Below, piece by piece: positions 22,071-34,596 of a stretch of DNA of 40,209 bases. This DNA is from Deltaproteobacteria bacterium (GTDB lineage: Bacteria > Desulfobacterota > Binatia > DP-6), in contig VBKG01000344.1 of assembly GCA_005879585.1 (NCBI GenBank), positions 1 to 40,209 of the forward strand, read 5' to 3'. The notes under the pieces are model-generated. The model did not search any database. It worked only from the letters and a program-made list of their open reading frames with translations, and was not told the origin of the DNA. Positions within the stretch are counted from its first letter, which is position 1, and each line of letters opens with the position of its first letter. Both the position numbers and the translations under genes were made by a program.

Positions 22071-23555
22071 ATGCCTACGCGTCTTTCTGCGACCAGGCGT
22101 TCGCAGGGCATGCCCGTCGCAATCCGGGCTGCCCTGGCGCTCGCCTTTCCGTTCATCGCCGCCCTCACGGTGGCCGGGACCTACCTCGGGCTCGAGCTCG
22201 TGGTGGGCGCGGCGTGGCTCGCCTTCGCGATGGTGGCCGCGCTCTTCGTGAACCCCATCATGGGGATCGTCGTCATGGTGGCGCTCTACATGCTGAGCGC
22301 CTACCCGACGCTCCTCCAGTCGCTCGGCTTCCTCACGGTCGCGAACCTCCTCGGCGTCGGGTTTCTCGTCTCGCTCGCGGTGCACGTGCTGAACACCCGG
22401 GACCTGTCGTTTCTGAAGCAGCCGCAGGTGCTCGTCTTCGCGGCGATCGGGCTCGCGTTTCTCGTCTCCACGGCGCACGCCCCCCTCGACTTCCCCCTCC
22501 TGCGCGCGAGCCGCGGCAAGGTCTTCATGCTCGACAAGACCGCTGACCTGTCCCACGACCTGGTGACCCGGCTCGCGTTCCTGATCTTCTTTCTCGTGTT
22601 CGTCCGCGGCCGCGCGGACATCCGCGCCGTGTTCATGGGCTTCATGCTCGCGCTCTTCACCGCCGTCCCCTCGGCGCTGCTCAACTGGACGCAGGGCAAC
22701 CTGAAAATGGGCTTTCGTGCCGTCGCGGCGGTCACCGCGGGCGGCAACGCGAACAAGCTCGCCATGATCTGCCTGATGGAGATGGCGTGCTGGTGGTTCT
22801 GGGGGATGTCGCGGCCCGGCCAGCTGCGACGGCTCGGTGCCCTCGCGGCCATTGGCGCCTCGCTCCTCGTGCTGCTCGCGACCGGGTCACGCAGCGGCCT
22901 GCTCGGCGGCGTCGTGTTCGTCGTGTTGATTCAGTCGGGCCCGCGCGGGTACCGGGTCCCGACGAAGTACATCGGGCTCGGGCTCGCGGCGAGCGCACTG
23001 CTCATCGCGACGGTGATCCCCGCCGGCGACTTCGCCCGCATGACGCACCTCGCGCCGAGCCGTGCGGAGGACCGCGGCGCGGCGGCGTCGAACAGGATGC
23101 GCGAGGACACGATCATGTCCGGCTGGCACATGATCAAGGACCACCCGTGGCTCGGGGTCGGTCTCGGCAACTTCCGCGAGGTGTCCCGGCAGGTCTACAA
23201 CGACACGTTCTTCCGCCCGCCTCACAACTCCTATCTGTGGGCCGCGGCGGAGGGCGGCGTCTTCACCCTCGGGCTCTACCTGTTCCTCTTCTGGGTGACG
23301 TGGCGTGACCTGCGCGTCGTCACCCGACTCGCCTACCGCGATCCGGAAGTCGGCTACATCGCCGCCGCGATCCGCATCGTGTACCTGCTCTTCTGCTTCT
23401 TCGCGCTCTTCTCCGACCTCTGGCAGACGCCGTTTGCCTACATCCTGATCGGGCTCATCGTGACGATGCGGCGCTACGTCGAGAGCCTCGGCGAGCCGAC
23501 GGTCGTCGGTGCGGGCCCCCCCTGGGACGAGTACGCCCTCGCGGCGCCGGCATGA
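22071..23555 (+). CDS. O-antigen ligase/polymerase-family membrane protein (Wzy/WaaL type)
   Basis: The 494-residue polytopic protein has about eleven to twelve transmembrane segments and the large periplasmic loop of the Wzy_C family. The conserved motif near the end of that loop is 'RPPHNSYLWAAAEGGVFTLG'. The His and the following small residues match the catalytic region of WaaL-type ligases, and 'DHPWLGVGLGNF' is also conserved in the family. It should polymerise repeat units or transfer polymer from undecaprenyl-PP. Start is ATG 22071 or 22110; neither has a good ribosome site. The stop overlaps the next gene's ATG (ATGA). Confidence 0.88.
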   Translation: MPTRLSATRRSQGMPVAIRAALALAFPFIAALTVAGTYLGLELVVGAAWLAFAMVAALFVNPIMGIVVMVALYMLSAYPTLLQSLGFLTVANLLGVGFLVSLAVHVLNTRDLSFLKQPQVLVFAAIGLAFLVSTAHAPLDFPLLRASRGKVFMLDKTADLSHDLVTRLAFLIFFLVFVRGRADIRAVFMGFMLALFTAVPSALLNWTQGNLKMGFRAVAAVTAGGNANKLAMICLMEMACWWFWGMSRPGQLRRLGALAAIGASLLVLLATGSRSGLLGGVVFVVLIQSGPRGYRVPTKYIGLGLAASALLIATVIPAGDFARMTHLAPSRAEDRGAAASNRMREDTIMSGWHMIKDHPWLGVGLGNFREVSRQVYNDTFFRPPHNSYLWAAAEGGVFTLGLYLFLFWVTWRDLRVVTRLAYRDPEVGYIAAAIRIVYLLFCFFALFSDLWQTPFAYILIGLIVTMRRYVESLGEPTVVGAGPPWDEYALAAPA

Positions 23556-24673
23556 CGCGGGTCGCGTATTTTGCGCCGTTGCTCTTCACGGGCGGCACGC
23601 AGCGGCACCTCCAGCAGGTGCTGCGGCACCTCGACCCGCGACGCTTCGCCGCGCACGTCTACACCCTGCGGAGCGGCGGCGAGCTCACCGACGAGCTGCG
23701 CGCGGCGGGGGTCGCCGTCACGTCGCTCGAGCTCGGGGAGCGCCTCACGCGGCCGCGGGTGCTCGCCGGCGTGATCCGCGCGGCGCGGCTTCTGCGCGCG
23801 GCGCGCGTCGACGTCGTGCACGGCTACCAGTGGCGCCCCGCGCTCATCGGCGCGCTCGCCGGACGGCTCGGCGGCGCCCGGCTTCTCGTCGCCGGCAAGC
23901 GGAGTCTCACCGGCGCGGACCGACCCGCCCGTCTCGCGTGGCGCGTGATCGCGCGTGCGGTCGACACGATCGTCGCCAACGCCGACGCTCTCCGCGTCGA
24001 GGCGGAGGCCGACGGCATCCGGGCCCGCTGGGCGATCATCCCGAGCGGCGTGGACGTCGAGCACCTCCGAAGCAGCCCGGCGCCCGCCGCGGCCAAGGCG
24101 GCGCTCGGGCTCGACGCGAGGCGGCCCGTCGTCGGGACGGTCGGGCGCCTCGAGGAGCGGAAGGGCCACGGCGACTTCCTGCTCGCGGTCCGCGACATGG
24201 TCGGGCTGGCGAACGGCCTCCGGCCGCAGGCGCTGATCGTCGGCGACGGTCCGCTGCGCGGGCGTCTCGAGCGGCAGACGGCCGATCTCGGGCTCGGCGA
24301 GATCGTCCACTTCACCGGCGCCGTGGCCGACGTCCGGACGGCGCTCGCGGCCATGGACGTGTTCGTGCTGCCGTCGCGCGCCGAGGGGATGTCGAACGCG
24401 CTGCTCGAAGCGATGGCGGCGGGGCGGCCCGTCGTGGCGACCGCGGTGGGCGGCACGCGCGAGGCCGTCGAGACCGACCGCACGGGCGTCCTCGTGCCGC
24501 CCGGCGATCCTGCCGCGCTCGCCGGTGCGGCCGTGGCACTGCTGGCCGACCCGCGGCGCGCCGCGGCGCTCGCCGGCGCGGCCGGGCGCGCCGTCGAGGA
24601 ACGCTTCAGCGCGCGGCAGATGGTCGCGCGCCTCGAGCGGCTGTACACGGAGCGCCTCGAGGCCGCGGCGTGA
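23552..24673 (+). CDS. GT4-family glycosyltransferase
   Basis: The 373-residue GT-B protein opens 'TRVAYFAPLLFTGGTQRHLQ' and carries the donor site 'GTVGRLEERKGHGDFLLAV', 'VGDGPLR' and the E-x7-E motif in 'SRAEGMSNALLEAMAAGRPV'. It adds one sugar to the lipid-linked repeat unit on the cytoplasmic face. Sugar specificity is not evident. It overlaps both neighbours by four bases, and the coupled block of translation begins here. Confidence 0.9.
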   Translation: MTRVAYFAPLLFTGGTQRHLQQVLRHLDPRRFAAHVYTLRSGGELTDELRAAGVAVTSLELGERLTRPRVLAGVIRAARLLRAARVDVVHGYQWRPALIGALAGRLGGARLLVAGKRSLTGADRPARLAWRVIARAVDTIVANADALRVEAEADGIRARWAIIPSGVDVEHLRSSPAPAAAKAALGLDARRPVVGTVGRLEERKGHGDFLLAVRDMVGLANGLRPQALIVGDGPLRGRLERQTADLGLGEIVHFTGAVADVRTALAAMDVFVLPSRAEGMSNALLEAMAAGRPVVATAVGGTREAVETDRTGVLVPPGDPAALAGAAVALLADPRRAAALAGAAGRAVEERFSARQMVARLERLYTERLEAAA

Positions 24674-25470
24674 GACCGCGCGCCGCGGTCTTCGCGTTCC
24701 ACGACGTCGTGCCGGCCGACCGGCTGGCCGAGGTGCCGGCCACGCACCGCCCGTACGCGATCGACCCGCGCGACTTCCGCGCTCTCCTCCTGGCGGCCGC
24801 CGATTCGCCGCGCCGGTCGCTGCCCGTCGGCCGCGTGCCGGGCGAGCTCGGCGGCGGCTTCTTCGGCCTCACGTTCGACGACGGATCGGCGAGCGACTAC
24901 GAGCACGCGTTCCCCGCGCTCGTCGAGCTCGGGCTCCGCGCGACGTTCTTCGTCGTCCCGACGCGCGTCGACACGGCCGGCCACGTCACGTGGGCGCAGC
25001 TTCGCGAGATGACCGCCGCCGGCATGGAGATCGGCAGCCACTCGATGACCCACCCGTTCCTCGACGCGCTCGACGAAGCGGGTCTCCGCCGGGAGTTCGG
25101 CGACTCCAAGGCGATGCTCGAGGACCGTCTCGGCGCGCCGGTCGCAGTTGCGTCCCTGCCGCGCGGCTGGGAGCCGCCGGCGCTCACCCCGGTGCTCACC
25201 GAGCTCGGCTACCGGGTGTTCTGCACGAGCCGGCTCGGCTGGTGGCACCCCGGGGACCCGCCGCTGTCGATGCCGCGGATCGGCGTCCGGCGCGCGATGC
25301 CCGTCGAGGAGTTCGCGGCCATCGTCGAGGCGCAGCGCGGCGCGCTCTGGCGGATGCAGACGATCGAGGCCGCCAAGAATGCCGCCAAGGCCTGCCTCGG
25401 ACGGCGCGGCTGGAACCGCGTGCGGGCCCCGCTCCTCGAGCTCTTCTACCGCGACGGGGACCCGCGATGA
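24670..25470 (+). CDS. Polysaccharide deacetylase-family protein (NodB fold)
   Basis: The 266-residue protein starts at GTG 24670, overlapping the previous stop (GTGA). The NodB motifs are intact: 'GLTFDDGSASDYEHAFP' (metal-binding Asp pair), 'EIGSHSMTHPFL' (metal His pair) and 'SLPRGWEPP' in the next position. No signal peptide or membrane anchor is visible, so it may act in the cytoplasm on a sugar intermediate, or in another compartment by an unseen route. In exosortase-type EPS loci such proteins remove N-acetyl groups from precursors or polymer. Deacetylation would free an amino group that the downstream acyl module could use. Confidence 0.85.
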   Translation: MRPRAAVFAFHDVVPADRLAEVPATHRPYAIDPRDFRALLLAAADSPRRSLPVGRVPGELGGGFFGLTFDDGSASDYEHAFPALVELGLRATFFVVPTRVDTAGHVTWAQLREMTAAGMEIGSHSMTHPFLDALDEAGLRREFGDSKAMLEDRLGAPVAVASLPRGWEPPALTPVLTELGYRVFCTSRLGWWHPGDPPLSMPRIGVRRAMPVEEFAAIVEAQRGALWRMQTIEAAKNAAKACLGRRGWNRVRAPLLELFYRDGDPR

Positions 25471-25492
25471 TCGCACGCCACGCGGGCGGGGC

Positions 25493-27217
25493 ATGACGGT
25501 CTCCGAGGCGCTCGCGGTGATGCATGCCGCGCGCGCCGCGAGCGGCCGGGTCGCGCGCTACGCGCTCGTGTGCGGCGCCACCCCCGTCCATCTCGGCACG
25601 TTCGTCGCCGCCGAGCTCCAGCGCCGTCTCGCCGACACGCGGGTCGAGATCGTGAACGGCCCGTACGGCGACGTCCTCGGTGGCCTCGAGCAGGCGGCGC
25701 GGATCGATGGCGATGGCGCGGTCGTGGTCGTCGAGTGGTCGGACCTCGACCGCCGTCTCGGGCTGCGCGACGCCGCTGGCTGGCGTCCGGGCGACCTGCC
25801 CGACGTCGTGACGAACGCGGCGTGGGCGTGCGACGCGATCGTCGCCGGCGTCGGACGTCTCGCCGACCGCATGCCCGTGGCGATCTCGGGGCCGACGCTG
25901 CCGCTCCCGCCCGTCGCGTTCACGCCGGGCTGGATGGCGAGCACGGTCGCAGTGGATCTCCGCCGTCTCGCGGCCGACCTGGCGGCGCGGCACGCCCACC
26001 TGGCGGGCGTCCGGGTCGTGGAATCGCAGCGGCTCGACACCCTGTCGGCGCCCGGCACGCGGCTCGACGTGCGGTCCTGGCTGACCATCGGGTTCCCCTA
26101 TCGCCGCCCTCATGCCGCGATCCTCGGCGAGCTGCTCGCGCAGCTGCTCGTGCCGACGGCGCCGAAGAAGGGCCTCATCACCGACCTCGACGACACCGTC
26201 TGGCGCGGTGTGCTCGGGGAGGCGAGCGTCTCCTGGGACCTCGACCATCGAAGCCACGCCCATGCGCTCTACCAGCAGCTCCTCGCCGCGCTCGCCGACG
26301 CCGGGGTGCTGATCGGCGTCGTGTGCAAGGCCGACGCGACGACGGTCGAAGCCGGCCTCGCGGCGCGTGACCTGCTCCTGCCGCGCGAGCGGCTCTTCCC
26401 CGTCGAGGCGCACTGGGAGCCCAAGTCCGTGTCCGTCGAACGCATCCTCCGCGCCTGGAACATCGACGCCGCGAGCGTCGTGTTCGTCGACGACAGCCCC
26501 GCGGAGCTGGCCGAAGTCCAGAGCGTGTATCCCGACCTCACCGCCCTCCGTTTTCCGACCGGCGACGACGCCGGCGTCTACGCGCTCCTCGAGGAGCTGC
26601 GCGACCTCTTCGGGAAGCCGCGGCTCGTGCCCGAAGACGGCCTGCGCGCGCCGACCACCGCCACGGGTGCGCTACCGCCGGTCGCATCCGGCGCCGATCG
26701 CCTCGACGCGTTCCTCGCCCGCGCCGAGCAGGAACTGACGGTCCTGCCGGTGGCCACTCCCGGCGACGGGCGAGCGCTCGAGCTCGTGAACAAGACGAAC
26801 CAGTTCAACTTGAACGGCCGGCGTTACACGGACGGCGAGTGGCGGGCACTCGTCGAGCGCGACGGCTCGGTCGCGCTCGTGCTCGCATACCGCGAGCGGT
26901 ACGGTCCGCTCGGCAGGATATCGGTGCTGGCAGGCCGGCGCGCCGGCGCGCACCTGACCGTCGACACGTGGGTCCTCAGCTGCCGGGCGTTCAGCCGCCG
27001 GATCGAGTGGGCGACGCTCGCGTGGCTGTTCGACCGCTGGCACCTCTCCGACATCACCTTCGCGTACGCGCCGACGCCGAAGAACCACCTCGCCACCGGC
27101 TTCCTGCAGGAGCTGGTCGACGGCGCGCTGCCCGCCGCACCGCGCGTCTCCGCGGCCGCCTTCGCGGCGCGGAAGCCGGCGCTGTCTATCCGCTGGTCGG
27201 CGGCGGAATGCCCGTGA
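25493..27217 (+). CDS. FkbH-like HAD-IIIC protein (glyceryl-ACP-type synthase/transferase)
   Basis: The 574-residue protein has an N-terminal region of about 215 residues of the type found in long FkbH-like proteins ('HLGTFVAAELQRRL'). A HAD core follows ('GLITDLDDTVWRGVLGE', DxDDT 231-235; 'HWEPKS' near 308; 'VFVDDSPAEL' 330-339). It ends in a GNAT-like region with the typical 'NKTNQFNLNGRRYT'. Classical FkbH proteins take a three-carbon phosphoglycerate unit and load it on an acyl carrier protein. Standalone copies in glycan loci probably supply small acyl groups. The ACP gene follows with a 10-bp overlap, strongly suggesting that pairing. The substrate is inferred, not seen. Confidence 0.85.
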   Translation: MTVSEALAVMHAARAASGRVARYALVCGATPVHLGTFVAAELQRRLADTRVEIVNGPYGDVLGGLEQAARIDGDGAVVVVEWSDLDRRLGLRDAAGWRPGDLPDVVTNAAWACDAIVAGVGRLADRMPVAISGPTLPLPPVAFTPGWMASTVAVDLRRLAADLAARHAHLAGVRVVESQRLDTLSAPGTRLDVRSWLTIGFPYRRPHAAILGELLAQLLVPTAPKKGLITDLDDTVWRGVLGEASVSWDLDHRSHAHALYQQLLAALADAGVLIGVVCKADATTVEAGLAARDLLLPRERLFPVEAHWEPKSVSVERILRAWNIDAASVVFVDDSPAELAEVQSVYPDLTALRFPTGDDAGVYALLEELRDLFGKPRLVPEDGLRAPTTATGALPPVASGADRLDAFLARAEQELTVLPVATPGDGRALELVNKTNQFNLNGRRYTDGEWRALVERDGSVALVLAYRERYGPLGRISVLAGRRAGAHLTVDTWVLSCRAFSRRIEWATLAWLFDRWHLSDITFAYAPTPKNHLATGFLQELVDGALPAAPRVSAAAFAARKPALSIRWSAAECP

Positions 27218-27462
27218 TCGCGTTGGACGGCGTCGAGCGCCGGCTCGTGCGCTGCTTCGGGCTCGTGTTCCCGGAGCTCGGCACCGACGAGATTCCCGTC
27301 GCGAGCCCGTCCTCGGTCGGTACGTGGGATTCGCTCGCGTCGATCAACCTCGTGGCCGTCATCGAGGAGGAGTTCGGCATCCAGGTGGAGCTCGAGGAGC
27401 TGGGCGACATGATGTCCTTTGCGACGGTCCTCGACCTGCTCGAGCGAAGGCGCGGCCGATGA
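27208..27462 (+). CDS. Acyl carrier protein
   Basis: The 84-residue protein has the phosphopantetheine attachment site Ser42 in 'TWDSLASINLVAVIEEEFG', and helices II-III ('QVELEELGDMMSFATVLDLL') match a standalone ACP. It is not the primary fatty-acid ACP because it sits between FkbH-like and MaoC-SDR genes and is translationally linked to both. It should carry the acyl intermediate of a small dedicated pathway. The preceding stop overlaps by 10 bp, and the ATG of the next gene overlaps its stop (ATGA). Confidence 0.92.
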   Translation: MPVIALDGVERRLVRCFGLVFPELGTDEIPVASPSSVGTWDSLASINLVAVIEEEFGIQVELEELGDMMSFATVLDLLERRRGR

Positions 27463-28652
27463 CGCCGGCCATGCGAGCCCTCGAGGGGACTGACATCGCG
27501 ATCGGCGCGAAGGCCGAGTTCGAGCGCGAAATCCGCGAGGAGGACGTCCTCCGGTTCGCCGAGAGCTCGGGCGACTGGAATCCGCTCCACGTCGACCCGG
27601 TGTATGCCGCCGCCTCGAAGCTCGAGGGGCGCCTCGTGCACGGCGCGTTCCAGGTGGGACTCGCCTCCGCGCTCGTCGGCATGTCCCTGCCCGGGCCGCC
27701 GGTCCTGCTGGCGTCGGTGCAGGCGCGCTTCCCCGCGCCACTCTACTTCCCGTGCCGGGTGCACGTCCGCGGCGAGATCGTCTCGTGGGACGCCGCGCTC
27801 CGCAGCGGCAGCGTGAAGGTCGGCATCCTCGACGCCGGCCGCCGCCTGCCGACCGCGGAAATCTTCATGGGGTTCACGAGCCACGAGGCGCGCCGGCCCG
27901 CCGCGGCGCTGCCCGTTCCGCCGGTGTCGGCGGCGGCCGTCACGGACGCACCGTTGGTGATCGTGACCGGCGCCACGGGCGGGCTCGGCGCGGCCATCGC
28001 GGCGCGGCTCGCCGGTGACCATACGGTCCTGGCACTCGGCCATACCCGCCCTCTGCCGGAGCCGCTCGCGGCGCACCCGCGCGTCACCGGGCTCCACGTC
28101 GACCTCGCGGCGGCGGATTGGCGCACGTCGCTCGAGGCGGTGCTCGGCGACCGGCCGGTCTTCGCGATCGTCCATGCAGCCTGGCCCGGCGCGCCGCGCG
28201 GCGGCCTGCTCGCCGCGCCCGACGAGACGATCGAGGAGCAGGTCCGCTTCGGCACCGTCTACACCGTGCGGCTCGCGCGCTTTTTGTTCGGCCGCGTCGG
28301 CCCCGCCGGCGGCCGCCTGATCGTGGTCAGCTCGATCTGGGGGAGCCACCGGCCGAACCTCTCGCTCGCGGCGTACTCCCTCGGCAAAGCGACGCTCGAG
28401 AGCGCCGTGAAGCTCCTCGCGCCGGAGATGGCGCGGCGGGGCGTGACGGTGAACGCGGTGTGTCCCGCCCTGGTCCCCGTCGGCATGCACAAGAACCAGA
28501 GCGAGCGATGGATCCGCATGAAGGCCTCGCTGGTGCCGCTCGGGCGGCTCTGCCGGCCCGAGGACGTGGGCGACGTCGTCCGCTTCCTGCTCTCGCCCGG
28601 CGCCTCGTTCGTGTCCGGCGAGCTGATCGAGCTCAGCGGGGGCCAGCTCTGA
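27459..28652 (+). CDS. Fused MaoC-like hydratase and SDR oxidoreductase
   Basis: The 397-residue protein joins two enzymes. Residues about 10-140 are a MaoC/R-hydratase hot-dog domain with the active-site signature 'SGDWNPLHVDPVYA' (Asp39, His44). Residues about 163-397 are a short-chain dehydrogenase with NAD(P) motif TGATGGLG (169-176), Ser290/291 and the catalytic Tyr305-x3-Lys309. The final 'ELIELSGGQL' is typical of FabG-like proteins. Hydration of an enoyl-thioester and ketone/hydroxyl interconversion are reactions on carrier-bound acyl chains, and the neighbour is an ACP. It may make a (R)-3-hydroxyacyl or 3-oxoacyl-ACP for glycan modification. Both active sites look intact. Confidence 0.88.
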   Translation: MTPAMRALEGTDIAIGAKAEFEREIREEDVLRFAESSGDWNPLHVDPVYAAASKLEGRLVHGAFQVGLASALVGMSLPGPPVLLASVQARFPAPLYFPCRVHVRGEIVSWDAALRSGSVKVGILDAGRRLPTAEIFMGFTSHEARRPAAALPVPPVSAAAVTDAPLVIVTGATGGLGAAIAARLAGDHTVLALGHTRPLPEPLAAHPRVTGLHVDLAAADWRTSLEAVLGDRPVFAIVHAAWPGAPRGGLLAAPDETIEEQVRFGTVYTVRLARFLFGRVGPAGGRLIVVSSIWGSHRPNLSLAAYSLGKATLESAVKLLAPEMARRGVTVNAVCPALVPVGMHKNQSERWIRMKASLVPLGRLCRPEDVGDVVRFLLSPGASFVSGELIELSGGQL

Positions 28653-29743
28653 TGCAGATCGTCGCGTACGAACCGTCGCTGTTCTCGGCGCTCGCCGCCG
28701 CGGCGCGTGGCGCTGCGGCCGGTCACAGCCTCGGGCACCGCTCGTTCGTCGACCACTATTACGCGACCGTGCCGTGGTGCCGGCTCTACCTGGCGCTCGG
28801 CGACGACGGGGCCGTTGCCGGCGCGATCGGCGTCGAGCAGCTCCGCTTCGAGTACGAGGGCCGTCCGCTGACGATCGGCTGCGCGTCGAACTTCGTCGCG
28901 TTCCAGCCGGGCGCCGGCGGCGTGCTCTTCCTCCGTTGGATCCGCTCGAGCGAGATGGCGTGCATCTACGGCGGCAGCCGCGACACGCATCGGATCCTCG
29001 CTCATCAGGGCTGGACGTACTTCCCGGGCGTGCACGTGTACAGCCTGAACGGGCGCTACACGGATCGGCCGGCCGAGCCGCGGTGGCGCGGGGTGGCGAA
29101 GTCCCTCCTCCGCGCGGTCACGCCGCGGGTCGACGTCGGCGAGCGCCTGCGAGGTGCCGTCGCACGCGGCGTCGTGCCTGCCGTCAACGTCGCCGAGGTG
29201 GGCGGCTTCGACGCGGACATGCTCCCGCGGGCGGGCGGCTTCACGTTCCGTCTGGCCCCCGGGACCGAGTACCTCGGGTGGCGCTACAGCCCCGCGCTGC
29301 CGTTCGTGCGCTACCGACTCTTCCGGCTGCCGCGCGGCTACGTGGTGCTGAACGAGCGGCCGGGCCGCATCGTCGTGGCGCAGGCGGACGCGACGGACCC
29401 GGACAGCCTCGTCGGCGGCGTGCTCGCGGCGGTCGCGCAAGTGGCGGGGGAGGGCAGCCGCCCGGAGGTGCTGCTCACCTCGTGCCATGCGCGCATGCGG
29501 CGGCTGTACGAGCAGTTCGGCTTCCGGCCGGCGCACGTCGAGCGGCCGTTCGCGCTCGGCTCGGCCCGCGGCCCCGTGCCGCTCGCCCCCGACACCTCGA
29601 GCTGGCTCGTCAATTTCGACTGGACCGACAACGGGCTCCGACCGCCGTTTCTCGACGAGACGGTGGCGTGCCCGACGGCCGAGCCGCGGCGGCTCATCAC
29701 ACGCCGGCGCCGCCCCGAGCCCGCATCGGCGAGTCCCGTATGA
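28652..29743 (+). CDS. GNAT-like acyltransferase (probable acyl transfer to the glycan precursor)
   Basis: The 363-residue protein has a GNAT-type C-terminal part ('VLLTSCHARMRRLYEQFGF' resembles the last helices of the fold). Its N-terminal half ('AIGVEQLRFEYEGRPLTIGC', 'WIRSSEMACIYGGSRDTHR') also resembles an acyltransferase-like domain. I cannot name a characterised subfamily. It begins one base after the preceding stop region (TGATG) and follows FkbH, ACP and MaoC-SDR, so transfer of the ACP-borne acyl unit onto a sugar amine or hydroxyl is the simplest role. FemAB-like function is an alternative. Confidence 0.6.
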   Translation: MQIVAYEPSLFSALAAAARGAAAGHSLGHRSFVDHYYATVPWCRLYLALGDDGAVAGAIGVEQLRFEYEGRPLTIGCASNFVAFQPGAGGVLFLRWIRSSEMACIYGGSRDTHRILAHQGWTYFPGVHVYSLNGRYTDRPAEPRWRGVAKSLLRAVTPRVDVGERLRGAVARGVVPAVNVAEVGGFDADMLPRAGGFTFRLAPGTEYLGWRYSPALPFVRYRLFRLPRGYVVLNERPGRIVVAQADATDPDSLVGGVLAAVAQVAGEGSRPEVLLTSCHARMRRLYEQFGFRPAHVERPFALGSARGPVPLAPDTSSWLVNFDWTDNGLRPPFLDETVACPTAEPRRLITRRRRPEPASASPV

Positions 29744-30765
29744 ACGCCCGCCTTCCCCGTCTCGGTGCGTGGGCCGCCAAGCGCATGCTCCACCACTCGG
29801 GCCTCCTGGCGCTGGCACGCCTGCGGCGCAGCCGGGAGCGGGCGCTCGTCCTTCGCTACCACGCGATCACGGACGGACCTGCCCACGTCCCGTACGCCGG
29901 GCCGAGCATCTGCCTCCCCGTCGACGCCTTCCGGCTGCAGATGGCCTTCGTCCGCCGCGCCTACCGCGTCGTGCCGCTCGACGAGCTCGTCACCGCGGTC
30001 GGACGGGGCGGGAAGCTCCCGCCACGCGCGCTCGCCGTCACGTTCGACGACGGTTATGCCGACAACCATCGCCTCGCGTTTCCCGTGCTCCAGCGCTTCG
30101 GCTTGCCGGCGACGCTCTACGTGACGACGGGCGCCCTCGACGGCGGACCGCCGCTCTGGATGTCGGCGGCACGTGCGCTCGTACTGGCCGCCCCGGCGCC
30201 GGAGCTCGCCGTCGCCGGGCTGCCGCCGATGGCGCTCGGCCAGAACGGCCAGCGCGACGTTGCGGTGCGCGCCCTCACACGCGCGCTCGTGCCGCTCACC
30301 GCTGCCGATCGCGCCGACCGTCTGGCGAGCGCGGCGACGGCGACAGGCGTCGACCTCGCGCGATCGCTCGCCGGGGTCATGCTCACCTGGGCACAGGTCC
30401 GGGAGCTCGCGTGCGCGGGCTGGACGATCGGTGCCCACACGGTGACGCATCTGAACGTCGCGCTCGCGTCGCCCGCCGACGCGGAGGCGGAGCTCGCCGC
30501 CTCCCGCGACGCGATTGCCGCGGCGGTCGGTGTCCGTGCGCTTCACTTCGCCTATCCCAATGCCGGCGGCGCACATCGCTACTTCGATCCCGACACGGCC
30601 GCGATCCTCCGCCGGCTCGGTTTTCGCTCGGCGGTCCTGTCGGTCGCGGGTGCGCTGTGTCCCGGTGCGGACCTGTTCACGCTGCCGCGCATCGGCATCG
30701 GTCCGCGGCTCGCCTCCGTCGGCGACCTGGCGGCGGCGCTCGAGCGGCAACGGCTGGCGGCCTGA
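29740..30765 (+). CDS. Second polysaccharide deacetylase-family protein
   Basis: The 341-residue protein has NodB motifs 'AVTFDDGYADNH', 'TIGAHTVTHLNV' and 'FAYPNAGG', all with the expected metal and catalytic residues. It is longer than the first deacetylase (266 residues) and has an insert of about 80 residues ('VAVRALTRALVPLTAADRAD') between the first two motifs, as in exosortase-A-system polysaccharide deacetylases. It has a hydrophobic patch near residues 15-26 but no convincing signal peptide. Its ATG overlaps the previous stop by four bases. Two different deacetylases in one operon suggest two N-acetyl positions, or one on precursors and one on polymer. Confidence 0.85.
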   Translation: MNARLPRLGAWAAKRMLHHSGLLALARLRRSRERALVLRYHAITDGPAHVPYAGPSICLPVDAFRLQMAFVRRAYRVVPLDELVTAVGRGGKLPPRALAVTFDDGYADNHRLAFPVLQRFGLPATLYVTTGALDGGPPLWMSAARALVLAAPAPELAVAGLPPMALGQNGQRDVAVRALTRALVPLTAADRADRLASAATATGVDLARSLAGVMLTWAQVRELACAGWTIGAHTVTHLNVALASPADAEAELAASRDAIAAAVGVRALHFAYPNAGGAHRYFDPDTAAILRRLGFRSAVLSVAGALCPGADLFTLPRIGIGPRLASVGDLAAALERQRLAA

Positions 30766-30772
30766 GTCCACT

Positions 30773-32722
30773 ATGTGTGGCATCGCGGGAGAGCTGAGCC
30801 TTCGCAGGGGAACGCACGCGCGTCCGGAACGCGTGCGCGCCATGTGCGACGTCATCGTGCACCGCGGTCCCGACGACTTCGGCGAGTTCGCCGAAGCCGA
30901 GGTCGCGCTCGGCATGCGGCGCCTGTCGATCGTCGACGTGGCCGGCGGCCATCAGCCGCTCGCGAACGAGGACGGCTCGGTCCAGGTGGTCTGCAACGGC
31001 GAGGTTTATAACAGCCCTCTGCTGCGCTCCGGGCTCCTCGCTCGGGGGCACCGCTTCCGAACCTCCAGTGACGTCGAGGTGATCGCGCACCTCTACGAGG
31101 ATGGCGGCACGGATGCGCTCGCCGACCTCGACGGCATGTTCGCCTTCGCCCTGTGGGACCGCCGCCGCCGGCGTCTCGTGCTCGGCCGCGATCGCGTCGG
31201 GATCAAGCCGCTCTACGTCGCCGAGCGCGGCGACCGCATCCTGTTCGGGTCGGAGGTGAAGTGCCTGCTCGCCGCGGGCGTCGACGCCGAGATCGACCTC
31301 CAGGCGCTGCACGACTACCTGACGCTCGGGTACGTCCCGGGCCCCGCGTCGATCCTGCGCGGCGTGCGGCAGGTGCCGCCCGGCCACCTGCTGATCGCCG
31401 AACCCGGCCGGCCGGTGCGCACCGAGCGCTACTGGACGCTCGAGGGACATGCCCGCGCGAGCGCGCCGCGCTCCGAGAGTGCGTGGACCGAGGAGCTCGT
31501 CGCGACGCTCCGTGGCGCCGTCGAGCGCCACCTGATGAGCGACGTGCCCCTCGGCGTCTTTCTCTCGGGCGGGCTCGACTCGAGCACGATCGTCGCGCTC
31601 ATGCACGAGCTCGGCGTCCACCCGATCCGCACCTTCACCATCGGCTTCGAGGAGCGGACGTTCAGCGAGACGGCGGTCGCGCGGCAGGTCGCGACGCGCT
31701 TCGGGACGGAGCACCACGAGCTCGTCGTGCGGCCCGACGCCGCGACACTCCTGCCGCGGCTCGTGCATCACTTCGACGAGCCGTTCGCCGACTCCTCCGC
31801 GATCCCCGTCTGGCATCTTTCCGAGCTCGCCCGCCGGCACGTGAAGGTCGTCCTGTCCGGCGAGGGAGGCGACGAGATGCTCGCCGGCTACGAGACCTAC
31901 CGCGCCCGGCGGCTCGCCTCGCTGTATGCACGGCTGCCCGGCCTGATCGGCCGCCGCGCGCTTCCCGAGCTCGTGCGGCGGCTGCCCGTCTCCCATGCGC
32001 GCGTCAGCTTCGACTACAAGGCCAAGCGCTTCGTCGCCGGCGCGTACCTCCCGCCGGCCGCCGGCCACCTCTGGTGGAAGACCGTCCTCTCCGAGGACGC
32101 GAAGGCGGCGCTCTACGCGAACGGGACGCTGGCCGAGGTCGAGCCCACCGTGCGGCTCTTCGAGCGTCTCTACGCGGAATCGGACGGCGAGGAGCTCGAC
32201 CGCCTGCAGTACGTGGACGCGACGCTGTTCCTGCCCGCGGACATCCTCGTGAAGGTCGACCGCATGAGCATGGCCCACTCGCTCGAAGCGCGGGTGCCGT
32301 TCCTCGACCGCGGCGTGATGGAGCTCGCGCGACGGCTGCCCGCACGGCTCCGCCTGCGCGGTCTCACCACGAAGTACCTCCTGCGGCGGGCGATGGCGGG
32401 GCGGCTGCCCGCTGCGGTCGTCGACGGCCGCAAACGCGGCTTCAACGTGCCCATCCCGGGCTGGCTCGTGGGCGAGCTCCGCGACTTCACGCACGACGTG
32501 CTGGCGCCGGCCCGGCTCCGCCGGCTGGGGCTGCTCGATCCCGCCGCCGTCGGCCGCCTCGTGACCGAGCACATGACGCGCCGGGCGGACCACAGCCGGG
32601 CCATCTGGGCGCTGCTCGTGCTCGTCCTCTGGTACGAGGCGGTGCAGGCCGTGCGCCCGGCAGTGGGCGGGGAGGCGCCGCGGCGTGCGCACGCCGCCGA
32701 CGGCCGGATGGGGGCCTCGTGA
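30773..32722 (+). CDS. asnB: Asparagine synthase-type amidotransferase (EPS-associated)
   Basis: The 649-residue protein is a class-II glutamine amidotransferase: the nucleophilic Cys2 in MCGIAGE, 'IVHRGPDDFGEF' and 'NGEVYN'. A C-terminal asparagine-synthetase domain follows, with PP-loop SGGLDSS (about residue 266), 'LSGEGGDEMLAGYETY' and 'MAHSLEARVPFLDR'. It matches the architecture of amidotransferases linked to exosortase-A EPS clusters, which probably transfer ammonia from glutamine to a sugar carboxyl group, giving an amide on a uronic acid. Plain asparagine synthesis is the conservative alternative. Seven bases separate it from the preceding stop, and its stop overlaps the next gene's GTG. 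Confidence 0.9.
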   Translation: MCGIAGELSLRRGTHARPERVRAMCDVIVHRGPDDFGEFAEAEVALGMRRLSIVDVAGGHQPLANEDGSVQVVCNGEVYNSPLLRSGLLARGHRFRTSSDVEVIAHLYEDGGTDALADLDGMFAFALWDRRRRRLVLGRDRVGIKPLYVAERGDRILFGSEVKCLLAAGVDAEIDLQALHDYLTLGYVPGPASILRGVRQVPPGHLLIAEPGRPVRTERYWTLEGHARASAPRSESAWTEELVATLRGAVERHLMSDVPLGVFLSGGLDSSTIVALMHELGVHPIRTFTIGFEERTFSETAVARQVATRFGTEHHELVVRPDAATLLPRLVHHFDEPFADSSAIPVWHLSELARRHVKVVLSGEGGDEMLAGYETYRARRLASLYARLPGLIGRRALPELVRRLPVSHARVSFDYKAKRFVAGAYLPPAAGHLWWKTVLSEDAKAALYANGTLAEVEPTVRLFERLYAESDGEELDRLQYVDATLFLPADILVKVDRMSMAHSLEARVPFLDRGVMELARRLPARLRLRGLTTKYLLRRAMAGRLPAAVVDGRKRGFNVPIPGWLVGELRDFTHDVLAPARLRRLGLLDPAAVGRLVTEHMTRRADHSRAIWALLVLVLWYEAVQAVRPAVGGEAPRRAHAADGRMGAS

Positions 32723-34596
32723 TCAGCCTCCGTATCCAGCGCGCGGATTTCGAGGCGCCGTGGCGCGAGCTCGGCCTCCGGCCGGACGGCCGATGGGGCC
32801 GCTGGTGGCAGGTGACGATCGCCGTCGCGGGGCTGCTCATCCTGCTCCCCGTCTCGCTGCTCGTCGCCCTCGCGATCAAGCTCACGAGCCGCGGACCGAT
32901 CCTCTACCGCGGCAGCCGCATCGGCCGCGACCTCCGGCCGTTCACGATCTACAAGTTCCGGACACTGCTCGTGGATGCGGAAGGGCGGATCGGCGCGCGG
33001 CTCCTGTCGCCGGACGAGCCGCTCTACACGCCGGTCGGTCGCTTCCTCAAGCGCAGCAAGCTCGACGAGATCCCCCAGCTCCTGAACGTGCTCCGCGGCG
33101 ACATGAACCTGGTCGGCCCCCGGCCGATCCGCCCGATCTTTCTCGCCACCTCGACGCGCGACATCGCGAACTACACGGCGCGGTTCGTCGTGCGGCCGGG
33201 GATGACCGGCCTCGCGCAGCTCCGCGGGGGCTACTTCACGCACCCGCGAGACAAGCTGCGCTACGACATCCTCTACATCCGCAACCGGAGCTTCTGGCTC
33301 GACTTCCGGCTCGTCGCCGCCACGTTCGTGAAGCTCCTGAACCGCTGGCTCACGCTCGGCGTCGTCCTCGGGCTCATGTTCCTCTGCGCGTCGTTCGCGC
33401 CCGCGCTCTTCAAAGAGCCGTTCGAGGTCGCGGTCGGCGGCTTCAACCTGTCGCCCTTCGAGGCGCTCGGCCTTCTGCTCGCCGTCACGACCCTCGTGCG
33501 GCAGATCCCGGCGCACCGGCTGTACCTCTACCGGACGCCGACCAACCGGCCGATGGTCGGCTTCCTGCTGTTCTCGGTGCTGGCCGGCGTCTTCGGCGGC
33601 GACCTCGTGCCACGGCTGCGCGACGTCGCGTACTTCAGCGCCTCGGGCTTCCTCCTCGTCTTCCTGCTCGTCAGCGGCGAGGTGAACGACCGCTTCGTCG
33701 TCCGTGCCACCCGCGTCGTCGCGCTGGCGGCCGTGGCGGTGTCGCTGCTCGGCATCCTCGAGATCGCCGTGCAGACGCACCCGAGCGCGGGCGGCGCGCT
33801 GCGCATCACGTCCACGCTCGGGAGCCCGATCGTCCTCGCGGCCTACCTCGTCCTCGGCGTGCCGCTCGTGCTCGTCGAGCTGACCGCCGCGGAGCGGCGC
33901 GAGGAGCGCGATTTCTGGCTCATCTGCGCGACCCTCGTCATCGTGGCCGTGGTCCTGACCCAGAGCCGGACCGGGCTCTTCGCGTTGTGGATCACGGGGT
34001 CGGTGTTCACGTGGCGCGCGTCGCGGCGCACGTTCCGTGTGTTCGCCGGCGGCTGCCTCGTCCTGGTGAGTCTCCTCGTGGTCACCGGGTCGCTGCGGCT
34101 CTCGCCGGGCGCGATCGGCGCCGAGTGGGCGCGGCGCGTCTCGCTCACCGGGGCGACGCTCTCCTCCGAAGTGCGGAGCCACCACGCACTCGTCGGGCCG
34201 GAGCCGGGAAAGGGCGCGCTCAGCATCGTCATGGTGGAGGGGCCGGGCGAGCGGGCGCCGCACCGCGCGCAGAACGCCAACATGCACCTGACACTCATGC
34301 TGCGCGCCGGGCTGGTCGGCTGGGCGCTCATGATGTGGGTGATCGGCGCCGCGCTGGCGGCCATCTACCAGGGCAGCCGCCGGGTGCAGGACGAGCGGCT
34401 GGCGCTCGTGCTCTGGGCGATCTTCTCCTCCGGTCTCGGGTTCCTCGTGTCGATGGCGAACTTCAACGCGTTCTACAACCCGCCCGTGCAGATCCTGTTC
34501 TGGGGGTTGCTCGGTATCGGCATGGCGATCGTGACGCACCTGAACGGGCGGCGTCCGACGTTCAACGTCATCTATCGGTTCGGGCCGGGCGAGTGA
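32719..34596 (+). CDS. Fused phosphoglycosyl transferase and O-antigen ligase-type membrane protein
   Basis: The 625-residue protein starts at GTG 32719 (GTGA overlap). Residues about 27-205 form a small monotopic phosphoglycosyl transferase: a re-entrant hydrophobic helix (31-55), then 'KFRTLLVDAE' with the catalytic acidic pair in 'SKLDEIPQLLNVLRGDMN' and 'LVGPRPIRP'. The frame continues without interruption into about ten transmembrane segments (about 210-610) resembling Wzy_C/O-antigen ligase ('LTQSRTGLFALWITGS', 'NANMHLTLMLRAGLVGW'). The first half would start repeat-unit synthesis on undecaprenyl phosphate. The second would polymerise or ligate on the opposite membrane face. This arrangement is unusual; see findings. 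Confidence 0.85.
   Translation: MISLRIQRADFEAPWRELGLRPDGRWGRWWQVTIAVAGLLILLPVSLLVALAIKLTSRGPILYRGSRIGRDLRPFTIYKFRTLLVDAEGRIGARLLSPDEPLYTPVGRFLKRSKLDEIPQLLNVLRGDMNLVGPRPIRPIFLATSTRDIANYTARFVVRPGMTGLAQLRGGYFTHPRDKLRYDILYIRNRSFWLDFRLVAATFVKLLNRWLTLGVVLGLMFLCASFAPALFKEPFEVAVGGFNLSPFEALGLLLAVTTLVRQIPAHRLYLYRTPTNRPMVGFLLFSVLAGVFGGDLVPRLRDVAYFSASGFLLVFLLVSGEVNDRFVVRATRVVALAAVAVSLLGILEIAVQTHPSAGGALRITSTLGSPIVLAAYLVLGVPLVLVELTAAERREERDFWLICATLVIVAVVLTQSRTGLFALWITGSVFTWRASRRTFRVFAGGCLVLVSLLVVTGSLRLSPGAIGAEWARRVSLTGATLSSEVRSHHALVGPEPGKGALSIVMVEGPGERAPHRAQNANMHLTLMLRAGLVGWALMMWVIGAALAAIYQGSRRVQDERLALVLWAIFSSGLGFLVSMANFNAFYNPPVQILFWGLLGIGMAIVTHLNGRRPTFNVIYRFGPGE

Follow-up and report, generated by a model that had tools for sequence, protein, structure and literature searches.

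A candidate carrier-bound route for a hydroxyacyl substituent in a deltaproteobacterial exopolysaccharide locus

Which acyl group is made by a four-gene module with its own acyl carrier protein (ACP), and which acceptor would receive it? This question is raised by a stretch of 40,209 nucleotides from a Deltaproteobacteria bacterium (GCA_005879585.1, contig VBKG01000344.1, positions 1-40,209, forward strand), referred to here over its full length as the window. Positions 25493-29743 of its forward strand hold four complete open reading frames (ORFs) encoding an FkbH protein, an ACP, a MaoC-SDR fusion protein and an acyltransferase, within an exopolysaccharide (EPS) locus (Table 1). With confidence only just above even, it is proposed that a three-carbon hydroxyacyl group is made on the dedicated carrier and is transferred to an amine of the exopolysaccharide.

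Synteny with a congeneric genome (G256) extends over the whole locus, and the dN/dS values of the four module genes relative to this genome are 0.34, 0.14, 0.18 and 0.20. The locus is under purifying selection in the genus. Because the ORFs are overlapping and packed, and because synteny and low dN/dS (0.14-0.34) are found in G256, the module genes are judged to be functional and not chance ORFs. The ORFs, families and overlaps that a sequence-only reading had assigned to the module were confirmed.

The acyl unit on the carrier

FkbH proteins form a glyceryl-S-carrier from 1,3-bisphosphoglycerate (PMC7489565; PMC8949500). The FkbH protein of the window scores above the curated TIGR01686 cut-off, and its HAD nucleophile pair D231/D233, K311, D333/D334 and the cysteine of its SCR motif (C497) are invariant in 11 aligned FkbH proteins, among which is the member of a Streptomyces KAS/FabH/FkbH/ACP cluster. 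Residues W40, D41 and S42 of the ACP, the latter being the serine of the WDS motif, are likewise invariant in 11 aligned relatives. In the proposed first step FkbH would take D-1,3-bisphosphoglycerate, strip its phosphate and load D-glyceryl onto the ACP.

The third gene encodes a MaoC domain (PF01575, 61 bits) and an SDR domain (PF13561, 82 bits) in one chain. The MaoC half aligned best among solved structures to HTD2 (3-hydroxyacyl-thioester dehydratase 2) and to the (R)-specific hydratase PhaJ, and its GDxNPLH motif is intact, as GDWNPLH; the SDR half keeps the Ser-Tyr-Lys of FabG-type reductases. According to the account of He et al. 2014 given in PMC4765723, bifunctional dehydratase-ketoreductase (DH-KR) proteins convert glyceryl-S-ACP to lactyl-S-ACP in the FR901464 and lankacidin pathways. 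By analogy, the MaoC half would remove the 3-hydroxyl as water to leave a 2-hydroxyacryloyl (pyruvyl) thioester, whose α-ketone would then be reduced by the SDR half to give lactyl-S-ACP. Since the window encodes the same three adjoining activities as this characterised lactyl route, lactyl-ACP is most likely the product, with glyceryl-ACP as intermediate.

The sequence-only reading had proposed a search for the same gene order elsewhere. Indeed, the module recurs in unrelated genomes, with some copies outside EPS loci. The closest full-length FkbH proteins outside the genus (42-46 % identity) are those of Paludibaculum fermentans, of genomes G560 and G628, and of locus L079, which also encodes a full-length MaoC-SDR orthologue (49 % identity). 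The FkbH-ACP-MaoC-SDR order, fused or separate, is found in L079, in L057 and on a Subdoligranulum plasmid. L079 reads deacetylase-like, LbH acyltransferase, FkbH, ACP and MaoC-SDR fusion, its deacetylase matching only DUF2334, below cut-off; L057, with a canonical FkbH, reads DegT-SDR-MaoC-ACP-FkbH; and on the plasmid five separate genes follow the order of the window, FkbH-ACP-MaoC-SDR-GNAT. MaoC-SDR adjoins FkbH-ACP in L048, L038 and L072 as well. The arrangements include MaoC-SDR-FkbH-ACP-MBOAT in L058 (canonical FkbH) and FkbH-ACP-WcbI-MaoC/SDR on a Niveispirillum plasmid, and in a trans-AT polyketide synthase (PKS) of Streptomyces anulatus MaoC, SDR and FkbH stand in one chain at its start (the loading region). 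Gene order, fusions and separate copies together indicate that the function of MaoC-SDR is tied to FkbH-ACP. They were given more weight than the enrichment of MaoC genes near FkbH (7 of 33 sampled loci against 0.68 expected from the MaoC density of the own genome), because MaoC density may be higher elsewhere; this enrichment is fragile, with p ~0.04 at five-fold density.

A related arrangement, FkbH-ACP-MaoC/SDR followed by a WcbI-like gene, adjoins small phage-type genes on an IMG/VR contig (L038, 1-3837). This stretch could be host DNA flanking a prophage, or a surface-modifying cargo of a phage.

It is rather unlikely that glyceryl itself is transferred, giving an N-glyceroyl amino sugar, with MaoC-SDR acting on something else or setting stereochemistry. 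Genome G560 (genes called with a window-trained model) carries FkbH, ACP and an acyltransferase of the same family without MaoC-SDR. These three are orthologous to those of the window, so this GNAT lineage can apparently use the FkbH product alone; a gene beside them resembles a deacetylase but scores slightly below the Pfam cut-off. Where MaoC-SDR is missing, glyceryl-ACP is probably the final donor. However, the MaoC and SDR of the window form one chain, in several lineages both are inherited together with FkbH-ACP, and the account cited above establishes such a route from glyceryl to lactyl. Lactyl is therefore preferred for the window.

The acyltransferase and its acceptor

The acyltransferase of the window matched no Pfam (E ≤ 0.001) or NCBIfam model, and its own structure model was weak (pLDDT 55.5). 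The model of an orthologue of 46 % identity (L040), made from an eight-sequence alignment, reached pLDDT 85 and pTM 0.84. Foldseek matched this model to Eis, the clavulanic-acid tandem GNAT and N-myristoyltransferases (E 3e-10 to 3n7z), and VIA-align superposed it on an N-myristoyltransferase with Z 18.8 over 293 residues (rmsd 3.9). A distant relative (L089) scored above the PF13527 cut-off. Judging from the modelled fold, the fourth protein is a tandem-GNAT acyltransferase, which bears out its earlier assignment as a GNAT. It most likely acts on an amine; the shared fold leaves the substrate unproven. A NodA identity was rejected as unsupported, with no Pfam family matched at the threshold given.

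The family seems rare. Its spread was mapped within sampled genomes of two phyla: members were found in 2 of 198 genomes of the own phylum and in 5 of 396 of the second, three of these being distant. A single-sequence search gave no match in plasmids and none in viral contigs, and a scan of genome contigs gave one relative. Three FkbH loci that are unrelated encode GNAT proteins (L072 9750-10877, L075 4100-5146 and L095 6887-8278) with a common terminal motif, GDQDRPN, at their ends.

The two deacetylases that flank the module, to which the sequence-only reading had drawn attention, are both PF01522 members. Deacetylases recur beside related modules. Genome G628 has FkbH, ACP, acyltransferase and deacetylase without MaoC-SDR, and in Paludibaculum the FkbH gene lies two genes from a PF01522 deacetylase in a glycosyltransferase locus; FkbH-ACP-acyltransferase loci with a deacetylase beside them are on the Acidobacteriota side. 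Among loci with a canonical FkbH, L072 reads FkbH-ACP-GNAT-deacetylase-MaoC/SDR and L075 NeuB-NeuC-ACP-MaoC-GNAT-FkbH-deacetylase, both deacetylases belonging to PF01522. As deacetylases recur and the fold is that of N-acyltransferases, N-acylation of a deacetylated amino sugar is proposed. One or both NodB-type deacetylases would take the N-acetyl group off an amino sugar, either in the polymer or in its lipid-linked repeat unit, and the tandem GNAT would N-acylate the freed amine with lactyl, or with glyceryl if MaoC-SDR is bypassed. The earlier prediction, that a small acyl group of the hydroxy or glyceryl type is built on its own carrier protein and passed to an amine that deacetylases expose, thus gains inferential support from recurrence, from the DH-KR lactyl chemistry as recounted in PMC4765723 and from the tandem-GNAT fold.

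Transfer to a sugar hydroxyl or another acceptor, with the deacetylases acting separately, appears distinctly unlikely. FkbH-ACP is found elsewhere with MBOAT, WcbI or LbH acyltransferases, families that are often O-acylating, but the tandem-GNAT fold is that of N-acyltransferases, and in several loci deacetylase genes adjoin the FkbH or acyltransferase genes.

Several points weigh against an ACP-borne lactyl group on a deacetylated amine. HAD motif II of the FkbH protein reads CKAD, while SKN is found in most relatives. The likeness to the DH-KR proteins of FR901464 and lankacidin is one of domain make-up, catalytic residues and FkbH/ACP partners, and MaoC occurs without an adjoining SDR in L053 and L075. 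The GNAT donor could be coenzyme A (CoA) instead of ACP, and ACP-GNAT pairs of genome G092 and of Blastocatellia have no adjacent FkbH and lie outside EPS loci. The deacetylases of the window could serve export, as in PgaB-like proteins, rather than acylation. Furthermore, the reactions are all inferred from relatives that have been characterised; the genes, families, catalytic residues, co-conservation and gene order in relatives are observed and the acyltransferase fold is modelled, whereas the acyl identity, the amide linkage, the sugar or polymer, the order of deacetylation and acylation, and ACP rather than CoA as donor are all predicted.

The ACP-acyltransferase pairs of L013 (11162-12857) and L017 (10001-11356) have no FkbH or EPS genes nearby; a VOC gene is present in L013. 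Such pairs suggest that the ACP and GNAT genes can travel together.

The exopolysaccharide locus

The module is part of a run of genes (22110-34596) with gaps of at most 22 nt, which looks like a single transcription unit: Wzy, GT4, deacetylase, the four module genes, deacetylase, AsnB-like and phosphoglycosyl transferase (PGT)-Wzy (Table 1). From FkbH through to the second deacetylase, successive ORFs overlap by 10, 4, 1 and 4 nt. Upstream of the run are Wza-, Wzc- and kinase-like genes, named from their translated sequences, and deacetylase 1 is 82 % identical to its counterpart in G256. The claim that the module is embedded in an EPS operon was upheld by this packed and syntenic run.

Table 1 Features of the packed run (curated cut-offs: TIGR01686, 146.65 bits; PF00550, 20.8; PF01522, 23.1)
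Feature	Position	Strand	Evidence
Wzy/O-antigen ligase-type membrane protein	22110..23555	+	PF04932 74.5 bits; opens packed run; 4-nt overlap with next gene
GT4 glycosyltransferase	23552..24673	+	NCBIfam glycosyltransferase matches
NodB-type polysaccharide deacetylase 1, 266 aa, GTG start	24670..25470	+	PF01522 79.4 bits; TFDDG and HSMTH motifs
FkbH-type HAD-IIIC glyceryl transferase/phosphatase (putative), 574 aa	25493..27217	+	TIGR01686 181.5 bits
Dedicated acyl carrier protein, 84 aa	27208..27462	+	PF00550 23.6 bits; phosphopantetheine Ser in WDSL
MaoC (hot-dog dehydratase)-SDR (ketoreductase) fusion, 397 aa	27459..28652	+	PF01575 residues 16-110; PF13561 residues 172-395
Tandem-GNAT acyltransferase (modelled fold), 363 aa	28652..29743	+	Fold of orthologue model; own sequence without family match
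NodB-type polysaccharide deacetylase 2, 341 aa	29740..30765	+	PF01522 73.6 bits; TFDDG and HTVTH motifs; PgaB-like matches
AsnB-like amidotransferase, glycan amidation candidate	30773..32722	+	PF00733, PF13537; TIGR03108 580 bits, under 816.9 cut-off
Phosphoglycosyl transferase with C-terminal polytopic Wzy/ligase-like region	32719..34596	+	PF02397 residues 28-207; weak TIGR03097

The last gene of the run combines a PGT domain and a Wzy/ligase-like half in a single ORF of 625 aa, besides the separate Wzy-like gene that opens the run, and this arrangement is kept in G256. The AsnB-like protein is close to the XrtA/PEP-CTERM type. An EPS locus of that type was nevertheless ruled out: exosortase (PF09721) was not found in the own genome, and the TIGR03108 score stays below its cut-off.

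ORF translations and Pfam/NCBIfam scans showed no ketosynthase among the operon genes. This bears on the idea that chemistry of the fatty-acid type, like that of the Pseudomonas syringae viosamine island, yields 3-hydroxybutyryl or a similar short 3-hydroxyacyl group. That island joins genes for an ACP, a ketoreductase and a sugar N-acyltransferase, and its reductase gene vioR is needed for the N-hydroxyacyl sugar (PMC3927599); HTD2 and PhaJ, the closest solved structures to the MaoC half, fit such chemistry as well. The island, however, has the KAS III enzyme VioS, for which the operon encodes no equivalent ketosynthase; the operon does encode an FkbH, a protein whose genes elsewhere are linked to MaoC/SDR. 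A fatty-acid-type product is quite improbable for these reasons. It is very improbable that the module belongs to a lipid or secondary-metabolite pathway and is in the EPS operon by chance, although similar FkbH-ACP sets in polyketide clusters and ACP-GNAT pairs outside EPS loci (G092, L017) speak for it. Against it, the ORFs overlap between Wzy/GT4/deacetylase and deacetylase/AsnB/PGT genes, an arrangement kept in G256, and the relatives are accompanied by nucleotide-sugar genes, NeuB/NeuC, DegT and glycosyltransferases.

Relation to known systems

The chemistry proposed here is known from polyketides, and for polysaccharide loci with deacetylases it seems not to have been described; the open-access literature searched described no locus combining FkbH with O-antigen or exopolysaccharide genes. 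Tentatively, and with somewhat less than even confidence, FkbH-ACP may be a general undescribed donor system, by which glycolysis-derived glyceryl or lactyl is placed on bacterial glycans. Its tailoring would be swappable (MaoC-SDR for lactyl, VOC proteins perhaps for epimerisation at C2), as would its transferases (tandem GNAT, WcbI, LbH, MBOAT), with deacetylase-exposed amines targeted in the GNAT branch. If so, polyketide starter-unit chemistry, from carrier-bound glycerate to lactate, is reused for diversifying capsules and exopolysaccharides, and a testable function is provided for many orphan genes of glycan loci, those for FkbH or 'HAD-IIIC phosphatase' and those for 'acyl carrier protein'. 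The surface polymers of Acidobacteriota, Proteobacteria and gut Clostridia would then be predicted to bear lactyl or glyceryl substituents, which could alter phage and host recognition.

VOC genes lie beside FkbH/ACP or ACP/GNAT genes in L013 (11398-11829), L046 (11909), L047 (12112), L064 (9620), L066 (6683), L067 (12228), L073 (3830) and L078 (6775). Those VOC proteins that were scanned by Pfam are Glyoxalase_4, a family that includes methylmalonyl-CoA epimerase; they are possibly C2 epimerases of glyceryl-ACP. FkbH-ACP-MBOAT cassettes, some extended by another membrane gene or an SGNH-like one, occur in L046, L049, L050, L051, L052, L053, L054 and L058. Their layout resembles that of Dlt D-alanylation, with FkbH replacing DltA.

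The glycerate-utilisation genes of tetronates and the methoxymalonyl-ACP genes likewise combine FkbH with a stand-alone ACP to form glyceryl-ACP, but there the glyceryl unit is subsequently oxidised or condensed with a polyketide (PMC7489565). Closer in enzyme types are the FR901464 and lankacidin pathways as recounted in PMC4765723, which share with the window a DH-KR function (here the fused MaoC-SDR), FkbH and ACP, encoded here by adjacent, overlapping genes. In that account lactyl starts a polyketide, whereas the operon has no PKS or ketosynthase and has a tandem GNAT and deacetylases instead.

Two systems that acylate sugar amines resemble the proposed later steps. In the viosamine island of the P. 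syringae flagellin (vioS, vioR, acp, vioB), a carrier, an SDR reductase and an N-acyltransferase attach a hydroxyacyl group to the amine of a sugar; it differs in using KAS III and an amine made by an aminotransferase, and it has no FkbH, MaoC or deacetylase (PMC3927599). In Nod factor synthesis (NodB/NodF/NodE/NodA), deacetylation by NodB frees the sugar amine, which NodA then N-acylates with an acyl group drawn from a carrier protein (PMC5080398). The module has no ketosynthase, its predicted acyl group is short and glycerate-derived instead of a fatty acid, its transferase is apparently a tandem GNAT without a Pfam match, and its acceptor would be an EPS. By this analogy the module would work like the Nod system without being one, having NodB-type deacetylases and a transferase outside the NodA family.

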